Shown here in pieces: positions 16,560 to 62,834 of a stretch of DNA of 64,000 bases. This DNA is from Sphingomonas sp. CROZ-RG-20F-R02-07 (GTDB lineage: Bacteria; Pseudomonadota; Alphaproteobacteria; Sphingomonadales; Sphingomonadaceae). Below the pieces are notes generated by a model, which saw nothing but the letters and a program-made list of their open reading frames with translations, was not told the origin of the DNA and made no database searches. Position numbers and translations under genes: made by a program. Numbering within the stretch: position 1 is the stretch's first letter; the number at the start of each line of letters is the position of its first letter. The stretch lies in assembly GCF_022662335.1 (NCBI RefSeq), contig NZ_JAKNQJ010000001.1:124001-188000 (forward strand). Direction: 5' to 3'.

Positions 16560-16788
16560 ATGAACATCGCCCTGAAAATCATCCGCTTCGGCAACTCCGT
16601 GGGCGTCATCATCCCCAAGGAAATGCTCTCCAAGCTGCGCGTCGATCTGGGGGGATCAGATCGTTTTGACCGAACAATCGGACGGCTTCGCAATCCGACC
16701 GCATGATCCGGCCTTCGTCGAAGCGATGACGGCTGCCGAGGCGATCATGCGCGAAGACCGCGACATACTCGCCGGTCTCGCCAATTGA
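16560..16788 (+). pseudogene. AbrB/MazE-type antitoxin gene with a +1 frameshift
   Basis: The frame begins MNIALKIIRFGNSVGVIIPK, the SpoVT/AbrB-like DNA-binding fold of MazE-type antitoxins, but ends early at 16706. Removing one G from the G6 run at 16649-16654 restores a 75-residue product that continues GDQIVLTEQSDGFAIRPHD and EAIMREDRDILAGLAN. That C-terminus is typical of antitoxins paired with Doc toxins. It stops at 16786-16788 in TTGA overlap with the toxin start. The break may be a real mutation, a slippage site or a sequencing error. The G run makes all three plausible. Confidence 0.8.
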
Positions 16789-17180
16789 CGTCGTCGGGCA
16801 CGCCGCGTTTTCCCAGTGCAGACATTGCGCGTGCGGTGCATGATCGGCAACTGGCCGAACATGGCGGACCAGCGGGCGTCAAGGACATAGGCCTGCTCGA
16901 GTCAGCCATCGCACGGCCGGTCAACAAACATGGCTGTAGAGAAGACGATCTCTGCGCCTCAGCGGTCGCTAATGCGTTCGGCATCGCCCGAAATCACCCG
17001 TTCGCGGATGGCAACAAGCGCACCGCATGGGCCATGGCGCGCTTGTTCCTGCGCCTGAACGCCGTAGAGATCGAGTTCGACAAGGCGGACGCCATTCGCA
17101 CCATGTTGGCACTCGTCTCCGGTATTCTGGCAGAGGACGATTTCGCCGCTTTATTTCGCGAGCACATCGTTCGCGCCTGA
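16785..17180 (+). CDS. doc: Death-on-curing (Doc/Fic) family toxin
   Basis: A 131-residue Fic-fold protein. Family landmarks are LAEHGGPAGVKDIGLLESA near residue 23 and the active-site motif HPFADGNKR at about residues 71-79. In phage P1 Doc, this motif phosphorylates EF-Tu and stops translation. The TTG start overlaps the antitoxin stop (TTGA), the usual coupling for this type II pair. No later in-frame Met keeps the N-terminal helix. With the upstream antitoxin frameshifted, the toxin might be unexpressed, weakened or neutralised elsewhere. All motif residues look intact. It is convergent with the aldo/keto reductase. Confidence 0.9.
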   Translation: MTSSGTPRFPSADIARAVHDRQLAEHGGPAGVKDIGLLESAIARPVNKHGCREDDLCASAVANAFGIARNHPFADGNKRTAWAMARLFLRLNAVEIEFDKADAIRTMLALVSGILAEDDFAALFREHIVRA

Positions 17181-18637: not shown

Positions 18638-18725
18638 GATCGTCACTCCCCATGTTGTTGCGGCAATGGTATTCAGGCCCGAACGCGTTGTCACGGCATC
18701 GGGTCCGTGCCGGATCGATTGACCG

Positions 18726-18747
18726 CATATAAAGATATCTTTATATG
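18726..18747. promoter_or_regulatory. Perfect 22-bp palindrome, likely ArsR-family operator of the met operon
   Basis: The half-site CATATAAAGAT (18726-18736) is followed directly by its exact reverse complement to 18747, giving a perfect AT-rich 22-bp dyad in a GC-rich setting. It overlaps the first possible start codon (18745) of the ArsR-type regulator and lies 9 nt before the second (18757). ArsR-family regulators bind such dyads. Autoregulation of the regulator-metF-metH operon is the natural inference. Confidence 0.8.
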
Positions 18748-18756
18748 TTGTTCCCG

Positions 18757-19737
18757 ATGACCCTCGCGCTCGACATCTTCCGTGCCTTGGCCGACGCCAC
18801 GCGGCTGCGCATCTTGACGCTGCTGCGCTCGATGGAGCTGTCGGTGGGTGAGCTCGCGCAGGTGCTGGGCCAGAGCCAGCCGCGCGTGTCGCGGCACGTC
18901 AAGATTCTCTGTGACGCAGGCCTCGCCGAACGGCGCAAGGAGGGGAGCTGGGTGTTCGTGGCGCTCGGCAAGCCCGATGCGGTCGCGCCCGTGGCCGCCG
19001 CGCTCGATCGCTGGGGCGCGGCCGAGCCCGATCACTGGGCGCTGGCCGACGTCGCGCGCCTTGCCGCTGTGCGTGCCGATCGCGCCGCTTCGGCGGCGGG
19101 CTGGTTCGAGGACCATGCCGGCGAATGGGACGCGATCCGCTCGCTCCACATCGCCGAAAGCGAGGTCGAGGCGGCGATGGCGGCGGTGCTGGGCCTGGAA
19201 GGCGGAGAGACCGGATCGCTCGGCACGCTGATCGACATCGGCACCGGCACCGGCCGGATGCTCGAGCTATTCGCCGGCCGCGCGCGATCCGCGCTCGGGA
19301 TCGATCGCAGTTCGGAGATGCTGCGGCTCGCGCGCGTGAAGCTGTCCGAACGCGGGCTTTCCAATACCGAGCTGCGCCAGGCGGACCTCTATGCGCTGCC
19401 GATGGCGGACGGCGCGGCGGACGTCGCGATCCTGCACCATGTGCTCCATTTCGCGCAGCAGCCCGGCGCCGCGATCGCCGAGGCGGTGCGTGTGCTGGGG
19501 CCGGGCGGGCGGTTGCTGATCGCCGATTTCGCGCCGCACGACCGCGAGGATCTGCGAACGCGCGACGCGCACACCCGGCTCGGCTTTTCGGATGCGCAGA
19601 TGGCGCAGTGGTTCGCCAATGCCAGTCTGGTGCCCGCCCGCATCGAGACGCTGGGCGGCGGCGAGCTGACGGTGAAGCTGTGGCTCGGCCAGAAACGGGA
19701 CAAGACTGTGGAATTGCGTGAGGTGAAGGCGGCATGA
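18757..19737 (+). CDS. ArsR-family regulator fused to a SAM-dependent methyltransferase
   Basis: A 326-residue two-domain protein (330 if started at 18745). Residues 1-95 are an ArsR winged helix: IFRALADATRLRILTLLR and VLGQSQPRVSRHVKILCDAG form the recognition region. Residues 140-320 are a class I methyltransferase: LIDIGTGTGRMLELFAGRA (SAM-binding motif I), ADVAILHHVLHFAQQ and GPGGRLLIADFAP. It leads metF-metH with an ATGA junction, so it probably senses SAM or SAH and controls the methionine cycle. Compare the ArsR-type SahR regulators described in Proteobacteria. The later start is chosen because the first lies inside the palindrome. Whether the methyltransferase domain is catalytic or only a sensor is unknown. 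Confidence 0.88.
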   Translation: MTLALDIFRALADATRLRILTLLRSMELSVGELAQVLGQSQPRVSRHVKILCDAGLAERRKEGSWVFVALGKPDAVAPVAAALDRWGAAEPDHWALADVARLAAVRADRAASAAGWFEDHAGEWDAIRSLHIAESEVEAAMAAVLGLEGGETGSLGTLIDIGTGTGRMLELFAGRARSALGIDRSSEMLRLARVKLSERGLSNTELRQADLYALPMADGAADVAILHHVLHFAQQPGAAIAEAVRVLGPGGRLLIADFAPHDREDLRTRDAHTRLGFSDAQMAQWFANASLVPARIETLGGGELTVKLWLGQKRDKTVELREVKAA

Positions 19738-20678
19738 CGACGATCTCGATCCCCCAGCTGGCGGAAGCGCGCCGCGCATTGGAGGAGCCGCTGTTCGCCG
19801 ATCTGGCAGGCGATATCGGCATCAGCTTTGAATTCTTCCCGCCCAAGAGCGAGAAGATGGAGACGCAATTGTGGGAGGCGATCCGCGCGCTGGAGCCGCT
19901 CGGCCCCGATTTCGTGTCGGTCACCTATGGCGCGGGTGGCTCCACGCGCGAGCGCACGCATGCCACGGTCGCGCGGATTCAGCGCGAGACCTCGCTTAGC
20001 GCCGCCGCGCACCTGACCTGCGTCGAGGCGACCCGCGCCGAGATCGATCAGGTGGCCGAGGAATATTGGGCGGCGGGCGTCCGCCACATCGTCGCGCTGC
20101 GCGGCGACATGCCGACGCCGGGCGAGCCCTATCGCCCGCACCCGGGCGGCTATGCCAACGCCGCCGAGCTGGTCACGGGATTGGCCCGGCTGCACCCGTT
20201 CGACATTTCGGTCGCGGCCTATCCCGAATGCCACCCTGAAAGCGGCGGCGACCAGGCCGATCTCGACAATCTGCGTGCGAAGTTCGATGCCGGCGCCAAT
20301 CGCGGGATCACGCAATTCTTCTTCTCGCCCGAGGCCTATTTCCGGTTTCGCGACCGGGTGGCGGCGGCGGGGATCACGGCGGAGATCCTGCCCGGCATCC
20401 TTCCCGTTTCGAATGTCGCGCAGTTCCGCAAATTCGCCGGCCAGTGCGGGGCGGCGATCCCCGCCTGGATGGACCGGCTGTTCGAGGGGCTGGACGACCA
20501 TCCCGCCGCGCGCCAGCTCGTCGCGGCGACGGTGGCCGCCGAGATGTGCCGGCGGCTCTATGCGGGCGGCGTGAAGAACTTCCATTTCTACACGCTCAAC
20601 CGCGCCGAGCTGGCCTTCGCGATCTGCCACATGCTGGGGGTTCGCGCGAAGCCGACCGAAAAGGCCGTGGCCGCATGA
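19734..20678 (+). CDS. metF: Methylenetetrahydrofolate reductase
   Basis: A 314-residue TIM-barrel flavoenzyme that reduces 5,10-methylene-THF to 5-methyl-THF, the methyl donor for MetH. Landmarks: ISFEFFPPKSEKMETQLWEA (catalytic Glu in FEFFPPK), DFVSVTYGAGGSTRERTH and HIVALRGDMP (FAD/folate site). The C-terminal part has NFHFYTLNRAELAFAICHML. The start overlaps the regulator stop (ATGA), and the stop overlaps a possible start of the next gene. This gives a tight regulator-metF-metH operon. Confidence 0.95.
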   Translation: MTTISIPQLAEARRALEEPLFADLAGDIGISFEFFPPKSEKMETQLWEAIRALEPLGPDFVSVTYGAGGSTRERTHATVARIQRETSLSAAAHLTCVEATRAEIDQVAEEYWAAGVRHIVALRGDMPTPGEPYRPHPGGYANAAELVTGLARLHPFDISVAAYPECHPESGGDQADLDNLRAKFDAGANRGITQFFFSPEAYFRFRDRVAAAGITAEILPGILPVSNVAQFRKFAGQCGAAIPAWMDRLFEGLDDHPAARQLVAATVAAEMCRRLYAGGVKNFHFYTLNRAELAFAICHMLGVRAKPTEKAVAA

Positions 20679-20704
20679 ACGCGGCCAGGACGAAGGAAAC
20701 ACCG

Positions 20705-21751
20705 ATGACCGCCCGCGAACGCCTGAACGCCGAAGCCGCCAAGCGCATTCTCATCACCGACGGCGCGTTCGGCACCGAGATCCAGAACTGGAAGCTGGAC
20801 GAGGCCGCCTATGCGGGCGATCTGGGCTTGCCGCACGACCAGAAGGGCAACAACGACATCCTCGCGATCACCAAGCCGGAGGTGCCCGAGACGATCACGC
20901 GCGAATATCTTGATGCCGGATCGGACATCGTCTCCACCAACACGTTCAGCGCGAACCTGATCTCGCAGGCGGATTACGGCGCCGAGCATCTGGTGCGCGA
21001 GATCAACCTGCAAAGCGCGAAGATCGCCCGCCGCCTCGCCGACGAATATGCCGCGAAGGACGGCCGGCCGCGCTTCGTGGCGGGCGCGATCGGGCCGACC
21101 AACAAGACGCTGTCGCTCTCGCCCGACGTCAACGATCCCGGCTACCGGGAGATCGATTTCGATTATCTGAAGGGAGTCTATCGCGACCAGATCGACGCAT
21201 TGCTGGAAGGCGGCGTGGATTTCATCCTGATCGAGACGGTGTTCGACACGCTGAACGCCAAGGCCGGGATCATGGCCGCGCTCGACGCCGCGGACGATCT
21301 GGGGCGCGACGTGCCGATCATGCTGTCGATGACGTTGACCGACCTGTCGGGGCGCAATCTGTCGGGCCACACCGTCGAGGCGTTCTGGCACGCGGTGCGG
21401 CATGCCCGGCCGGTGACGATCGGGCTGAACTGCTCGTTCGGCGCCGAACAGCTCCGCCCGCATGTGAAGACGCTGAGCGGCATCGCCGACACGCTCATCA
21501 TGATCTACCCCAATGCGGGCCTGCCCAACGAACTCGGCGAATATGACGAGATGCCGGCGACCACGGCGGGGCTGGTGGGCGAATGGGCGGCGGCCAGGCA
21601 GGTGAACGTACTGGGCGGCTGCTGCGGCTCGACGCCCGCGCATATCAAGGCGATGGCGGACGCGGTGCGCGGGCTGGAGCCCAGGGTGCCGGCCCGCCCC
21701 GAGGTGCGGACCAAACTCGCCGGGCTCGAACCGTTCACGATGGCGGCGTGA
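20705..21751 (+). CDS. metH: Methionine synthase, homocysteine-binding half (split MetH)
   Basis: A 348-residue homocysteine S-methyltransferase domain. It begins near ILITDGAFGTEIQNWKLDEA, and the zinc ligands are the Cys in GLNCSF plus the pair in GGCCGSTPAHI near the C-terminus. It corresponds to the first domain of E. coli MetH. The folate, cobalamin and reactivation domains are encoded by the separate gene downstream, so the two products must act together. GAAGGAAAC just upstream supports ATG 20705. An ATG at 20675 overlapping the metF stop would add ten residues. The split form is familiar in sphingomonads. Confidence 0.9.
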   Translation: MTARERLNAEAAKRILITDGAFGTEIQNWKLDEAAYAGDLGLPHDQKGNNDILAITKPEVPETITREYLDAGSDIVSTNTFSANLISQADYGAEHLVREINLQSAKIARRLADEYAAKDGRPRFVAGAIGPTNKTLSLSPDVNDPGYREIDFDYLKGVYRDQIDALLEGGVDFILIETVFDTLNAKAGIMAALDAADDLGRDVPIMLSMTLTDLSGRNLSGHTVEAFWHAVRHARPVTIGLNCSFGAEQLRPHVKTLSGIADTLIMIYPNAGLPNELGEYDEMPATTAGLVGEWAAARQVNVLGGCCGSTPAHIKAMADAVRGLEPRVPARPEVRTKLAGLEPFTMAA

Positions 21752-21774
21752 ACGGACCTGCCGCAATCCTGTCA

Positions 21775-21841
21775 CCGTTCGTGCTGAGCCTGTCGAAGCA
21801 CCTGCCCGGACCATGCCCTTCGACACGCTCGGGGCGAACGG
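21775..21841. repeat. Inverted-repeat element, GTTCGTGCTGAGC family, copy 1
   Basis: The left arm CCGTTCGTGCTGAGCCTGTC continues with GAAGCA. The right arm reads CCTTCGACACGCTCGGGGCG to AACGG at 21841. The arms are largely complementary, giving a 67-bp REP-like hairpin. It fills the gap between the two metH genes and ends directly against the ATG at 21842. A second copy is at 62747-62834. Confidence 0.8.
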
Positions 21842-21850
21842 ATGTTGAAA

Positions 21851-24460
<2,610 letters not shown>

Positions 24461-62746: not shown

Positions 62747-62834
62747 CCGTTCGTGCTGAGCTCGTCGAAGCACGCTCTCCGCAGGCCTGCCTTCGCAGTC
62801 GGTACAAGCCCTTCGACAAGCTCAGGGCGAACGG
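62747..62834. repeat. Inverted-repeat element, GTTCGTGCTGAGC family, copy 2
   Basis: It begins CCGTTCGTGCTGAGCTCGTC and ends with GCTCAGGGCGAACGG. The outer arms pair over about 25 positions with few mismatches. It is 88 bp long and non-coding, and lies just downstream of the minus-strand glycosyltransferase gene. It shares its arms with copy 1 at 21775-21841. Confidence 0.8.

Follow-up and report, generated by a model that had tools for sequence, protein, structure and literature searches.

A predicted SahR repressor of the SAM cycle in Sphingomonas, with a palindromic operator inside its own probable promoter

The locus described here lies in a 64,000 nucleotide stretch of DNA from Sphingomonas sp. 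CROZ-RG-20F-R02-07 (the window), and consists of a regulatory gene, here annotated as sahR, followed on the same (plus) strand by metF and metH. The sahR gene (18757-19737) encodes 326 amino acids from the favoured start, ATG 18757, or 330 from position 18745. Its N-terminus is an ArsR/SmtB winged-helix domain (18769-18978, residues 9-78 of the 330-aa reading; NCBIfam HTH_metalloreg, NF033788, 84 bits; also Pfam HTH_5), and its C-terminal part contains a class I SAM/SAH-binding methyltransferase-fold core (19225-19551), assigned from Pfam Methyltransf_31 (161-269), Pfam Methyltransf_11 (E 5.8e-22; residues 163-259, 330-aa numbering), the AlphaFold model and a fold match to 1vl5. The next gene, metF (19734-20678; Pfam MTHFR, E 5.8e-94), encodes methylenetetrahydrofolate reductase, and downstream of it metH is split over two genes, the first for the homocysteine S-methyltransferase domain (20675-21751; Pfam S-methyl_trans, E 1.4e-89) and the second for the pterin-binding, B12-binding and activation domains (21842-24460; Pfam Pterin_bind, B12-binding and Met_synt_B12). 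ATGA overlaps, read from the sequence, join sahR to metF and metF to the first metH gene. A reading made earlier from the DNA letters (the sequence-only reading) had proposed that an ArsR-methyltransferase fusion heads metF-metH, and the NCBIfam and Pfam domains and the overlapping operon confirm it.

The interval that separates the metH genes (21752-21841) carries a copy of a dispersed TCGTCCTGAGCTTGTCGAAGGA-like repeat (21779-21800, 3 mismatches), and this repeat recurs near 62.8 kb in two opposed copies (62751-62772 and 62809-62830). Elsewhere in the window, a Fic/DOC-family protein is encoded at 16785-17180 (Pfam E 1.9e-14), and before it lies the end of a short ORF (16566-16706) that by eye resembles an AbrB-type antitoxin and has no Pfam match; the two may possibly form a Doc toxin-antitoxin pair.

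The AlphaFold model of SahR was built on 28 orthologues and has a mean pLDDT of 91.6; L028 and L029 are left out of alignment A1. When the C-terminal part was compared with solved structures, VIA Z scores of 20.4-24.1 were obtained among the 50 matches listed, the value of 24.1 belonging to 1vl5, and several of the matched methyltransferase structures had been solved with SAH. Such model-based matches show a methyltransferase fold and not a function. The top six Foldseek matches were to Rv2258c, in a whole-length alignment with an rmsd near 20, and this is therefore a domain-by-domain match at best. In a sequence search of the PDB, none of the 60 matches listed (out of 67) covers both domains. 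Within the fold, the glycine-rich SAM/SAH motif DIGTGTG (19234-19254) is strongly conserved, with D160, G162, T163, G164 and G166 invariant in all 138 aligned rows (326-aa numbering) and T165 in 137, and D183 and D210, both acidic, are kept in 137-138 of the 138. These rows represent 137 distinct sequences, as our own gene is present twice, and 80 of them are tblastn segments. The conserved glycine motif, D183 and D210 are in keeping with a working SAM/SAH pocket.

Immediately before sahR lies the predicted SahR operator, CATATAAAGATATCTTTATATG, whose core, ATATAAAG-NNNN-CTTTATAT, occupies 18727-18746. It had been described from the letters as a flawless 22-bp dyad, and indeed the palindrome at 18726-18747 has no mismatch, is the only match in the window at up to 3 mismatches (0 of 100 shuffles) and is the sole perfect 22-bp palindrome of the window, where 0.06 would be expected from base composition. 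The palindrome occupies the spacer and the -10 of what is probably the sahR-metF-metH promoter, which has a probable -35 element, TTGACC, at 18719-18724 (plus strand) and, after a 17-bp spacing, a probable -10 element, TATATG, in the right arm of the operator (18742-18747, plus strand). These elements were placed by conservation among relatives and not by consensus scanning. TATATG matches the sigma-70 consensus only weakly, and a simple consensus promoter scan, which demands T at the sixth position, returned no plus-strand promoter in the region upstream of sahR. Among the family orthologues with an operator, 23 of 26 have TTGAC 16-18 bp from the -10, compared with 8 of 9620 upstream positions in the control (0.0025 expected per locus); the named loci, described below, have it at promoter spacing in 65 of 78 cases, the control applying to the family set. 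The -10 in relatives is mostly TATATC, TATATG or TATGTC, and once TAAGTC or TATGTG.

The palindrome contains an ATG (18745-18747) in frame with sahR, and the sequence-only reading held that the dyad overlaps the translation start and makes it ambiguous. Comparison with relatives argues otherwise. Of the 26 family orthologues that have an operator, only 4 (the Sphingomonas copy in the window counted) show an in-frame ATG within it, as do 4 of 78 named relatives, and a start at 18745 was discarded on these grounds. ATG 18757, which stands 9 nt beyond the -10, is at the start position conserved among relatives; the first in-frame ATG past the operator follows the -10 by 6-12 nt in 24 of 26 family loci and by 7-12 nt in 72 of 78 named loci. 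Since the operator ATG is rare and the spacing of the later ATG to the -10 is kept, the true start is likely to be ATG 18757, past the dyad and with almost no leader, and the ATG inside the palindrome most likely arises incidentally from the -10 sequence. The sahR mRNA would then be leaderless or nearly so, its 5' end lying at or just before ATG 18757. Our literature search found no publication combining leaderless mRNA, Sphingomonas and 'transcription start site'. Across much of the family, the operator appears to be built into the promoter of a probably leaderless sahR mRNA. In many loci outside the family the operator lies farther from the start codon, and so this operator-in-promoter, short-leader layout is not class-wide.

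A genome scan for dyad-like sites, which had been suggested alongside the original description of the palindrome, added ahcY and metK to the sahR-metF-metH operon. When up to 3 mismatches to the 16-bp core are allowed, the genome of this strain contains exactly four sites: the sahR site (0 mismatches), one located 66 bp before the ORF for S-adenosylhomocysteine hydrolase, ahcY (1 mismatch), one that precedes metK by 36 bp (3 mismatches of 16 positions), and a fourth (C34, L003; 3 mismatches) that lies within an unrelated 466-aa ORF and was taken as chance. The sites at sahR-metF-metH, ahcY and metK correspond to the published SahR core regulon. A search of the window against Rfam at the gathering threshold returned only two tRNAs and no SAM or SAH riboswitch upstream of metF/metH, and riboswitch control was rejected for the window.

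The association between gene and operator extends well beyond this strain. We compared 59 'family' genomes, taken to be Sphingomonadaceae, of which 54 contain sahR (best E 1.1e-48 or better; a two-piece match in two of them). With up to 2 mismatches allowed, these genomes contain 135 matches to the core and 6 to a reversed control pattern, and at least one core site is present in 49 of the 59. Of the 54 genomes that contain sahR, 48 have a site, compared with 1 of the 5 others (Fisher p 0.002; these counts and the 135-site sum were tallied by hand), which leaves six sahR-bearing genomes without a site at this threshold. The one genome with sites and no sahR match (G025, in 380 contigs) has two; the four others (G008, G014, G017 and G026) have neither sahR nor an operator at up to 2 mismatches. 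In G007 the sahR match falls in two adjoining pieces in different frames (C1:2367492-2368411), and the operator is kept. When 66 family sites were classified, chosen to favour those away from sahR and with SahR, MetF, MetH, AhcY and MetK as the genes sought, 27 lay before ahcY, 17 before metK, 11 before sahR and 11 before none of these.

At the sahR gene itself, the dyad, whose absence from orthologues was named in the sequence-only reading as a refuting result, was found upstream of most orthologues at every level compared, although the loci are mutually related and the counts that follow are not independent tests. First, in the 30 best-scoring of the 54 family orthologues the operator was present in 26 (up to 4/20 mismatches, within 150 bp); the exceptions are L008, L024, L028 and L031. 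L024 does have a good site, but it ends some 165 bp before the ATG, so that the short-leader layout is lost in this locus. Second, among the best 80 of 591 loci on named genome contigs, 78 have the operator (up to 5/20 mismatches within 150 bp of the start) and metF is the next gene in 71; the closest of these 80 is Sphingomonas sp. QA11, with 82% protein identity, and the two without an operator in that interval, L151 and L153, are named Zymomonas. Finally, at the class level the protein occurs at E up to 1e-30 in 55 of 115 genomes (our own and one congener counted), and the 28 loci from other families, drawn from 30 class loci read, have the operator in 26 (up to 4/20 mismatches; L192 and L195 lack it) and metF in the locus in 27.

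Our preferred reading, to which we give a probability of about 0.93, is that this gene is sahR and encodes an SAH-relieved repressor of sahR-metF-metH, ahcY and metK, acting through the operator at the promoter. The winged-helix domain of SahR, presumably as a dimer, would bind the palindrome at 18726-18747 and block RNA polymerase at the sahR-metF-metH promoter, since the palindrome takes up the spacer and the -10; the same SahR would control ahcY and metK through the two further operator copies. The methyltransferase-fold domain would be the sensor. In SahR this domain is reportedly related to methylases. Accumulating SAH would bind there, the SAH-bound repressor would leave the DNA, and expression of SAH hydrolase, MetF/MetH and SAM synthetase would rise together. 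The identity with SahR is argued here from the domains, the conserved operator, the sites at three operons and the SAM/SAH motif, the SahR of Desulfovibrio alaskensis entering the comparison from the literature; repression and SAH as the effector are likewise taken from the literature on relatives, and by analogy the effector is probably the same in this strain.

A variant of this reading makes SahR a trigger enzyme, whose methyltransferase domain still turns over SAM on a cellular substrate, such that the repressor would respond to the flux through methylation as well as to the SAH level. We consider this unlikely; it is allowed because H227, H231, D257, H261, R267 and H272 are nearly invariant beyond the plain SAM motifs, and because activity has been claimed for a Brevundimonas protein, considered below. 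It is quite improbable that the same repressor instead uses SAM as a corepressor, in the manner of MetJ and as suggested for SamR of the Xanthomonadales. The pocket motifs do not distinguish SAM from SAH, and the effector of SamR, a distant relative, is left undecided in the available portion of PMC4239095; however, ahcY belongs to the regulon here, and the same source links SAH sensing to the presence of ahcY and other SAM-cycle genes and names SAH as the effector of SahR. The sequence-only reading had left the choice between SAM and SAH open, and the effector of Desulfovibrio SahR is reported as SAH (PMC4239095; PMC8877191, as far as these texts were available).

A role in arsenic detoxification also has to be considered. 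A literature search for an ArsR-methyltransferase fusion with metF and metH listed one paper, a 2023 study of Brevundimonas sp. M20 in which 'ArsR^M' is presented as an arsenite methyltransferase (PMC10190100). According to the available portions of that report, ArsR^M is the same fusion, heads the same four-gene operon (arsR^M-metF-HMT-1-metH) and binds its own promoter, in which the palindrome is given as CTTTATATAAAG, with the same half-sites in opposite order. Neither 'SahR' nor 'adenosylhomocysteine' occurs in the main text of PMC10190100. Judged by the residues that the report names, ArsR^M appears to be orthologous to SahR: H223, H227, F254, R263 and H268 map at a constant offset of 4 onto positions conserved in 136-138 of the 138 aligned rows, Q224 corresponds to a position with Q in 92 of 138, and such a constant offset points to the same family. 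If the regulator were fused to a working arsenite methyltransferase, it would link methionine supply to arsenic detoxification, and the parts of the report available to us describe a mobility shift (EMSA) on the ArsR^M promoter, an increase in the MIC of arsenite for E. coli and a methyltransferase signal, measured with a kit, of 0.87 U/mg. Nevertheless, we regard this as very improbable for the family. No conserved cysteine was found in the 138 aligned orthologues, including the As(III)-binding cysteines of ArsM-type enzymes: the best Cys column reaches 59 of 138 (in the winged-helix domain), in the methyltransferase part no column exceeds 25 of 138, and 35 rows have no Cys at all, the per-protein Cys counts being lower bounds given the 80 tblastn segments. 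C134 and P296 of ArsR^M have no conserved Cys or Pro at the matching positions, the accessible text of PMC10190100 itself places Q and Y near As(III) and no Cys, and 55 of the 66 classified operator sites front SAM-cycle genes. The lack of a conserved Cys makes arsenic unlikely as a conserved function, and arsenic or metal sensing was rejected as the conserved role; since ArsR^M appears to be SahR, its arsenic role deserves to be re-tested. A metal-sensing ArsR/SmtB repressor that stands beside metF by chance is scarcely credible, despite the name 'metalloregulator' of the N-terminal NCBIfam subfamily, as the metal-site Cys of the winged-helix domain is not conserved and the operator sites are found mostly at SAM-cycle genes.

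The SahR reading places this locus within a system that has already been described. SahR is an ArsR-family, SAH-responsive regulator of the SAM cycle with a 20-bp palindrome (Leyn et al. 2014, PMC4239095), and the portion of that study available to us gives its core regulon as sahR, ahcY, metH, metH2, metF and metK and reconstructs SahR regulons in 7 of 7 Sphingomonadales studied. The copy in the window shares with published SahR the ArsR domain, the methylase-like fold, an operator of about 20 bp at its own gene and the core regulon, with no essential difference. In Ensifer aridi LMR001, sites are predicted before sahR, ahcY, metH, bhmT and metK, so that bhmT is an extra target and metF is absent from the targets named in the accessible text, and sahR transcription is highest in a sahR mutant, which supports autoregulation (PMC8877191). 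An orthologue in Pseudomonas aeruginosa is named in the part of PMC7950407 available to us. SamR of the Xanthomonadales, a distant homologue, likewise controls methionine genes, but differs from SahR in its roughly 30% identity, its 24-bp motif and its wider regulon, of which metK is the only SAM-cycle gene (PMC4239095, in the portion available). The idea that this protein is a repressor and sensor of the methyl cycle, put forward in the sequence-only reading, is therefore supported by the operator at its own gene and by the predicted sites at ahcY and metK, and is already in print as SahR. A plausible-looking lead is thus closed as a described system, with the gene start fixed, and it is only the fine promoter layout, an operator within the promoter and a probably leaderless start, neither of them described in the available portion of PMC4239095, that adds to what is published on SahR.
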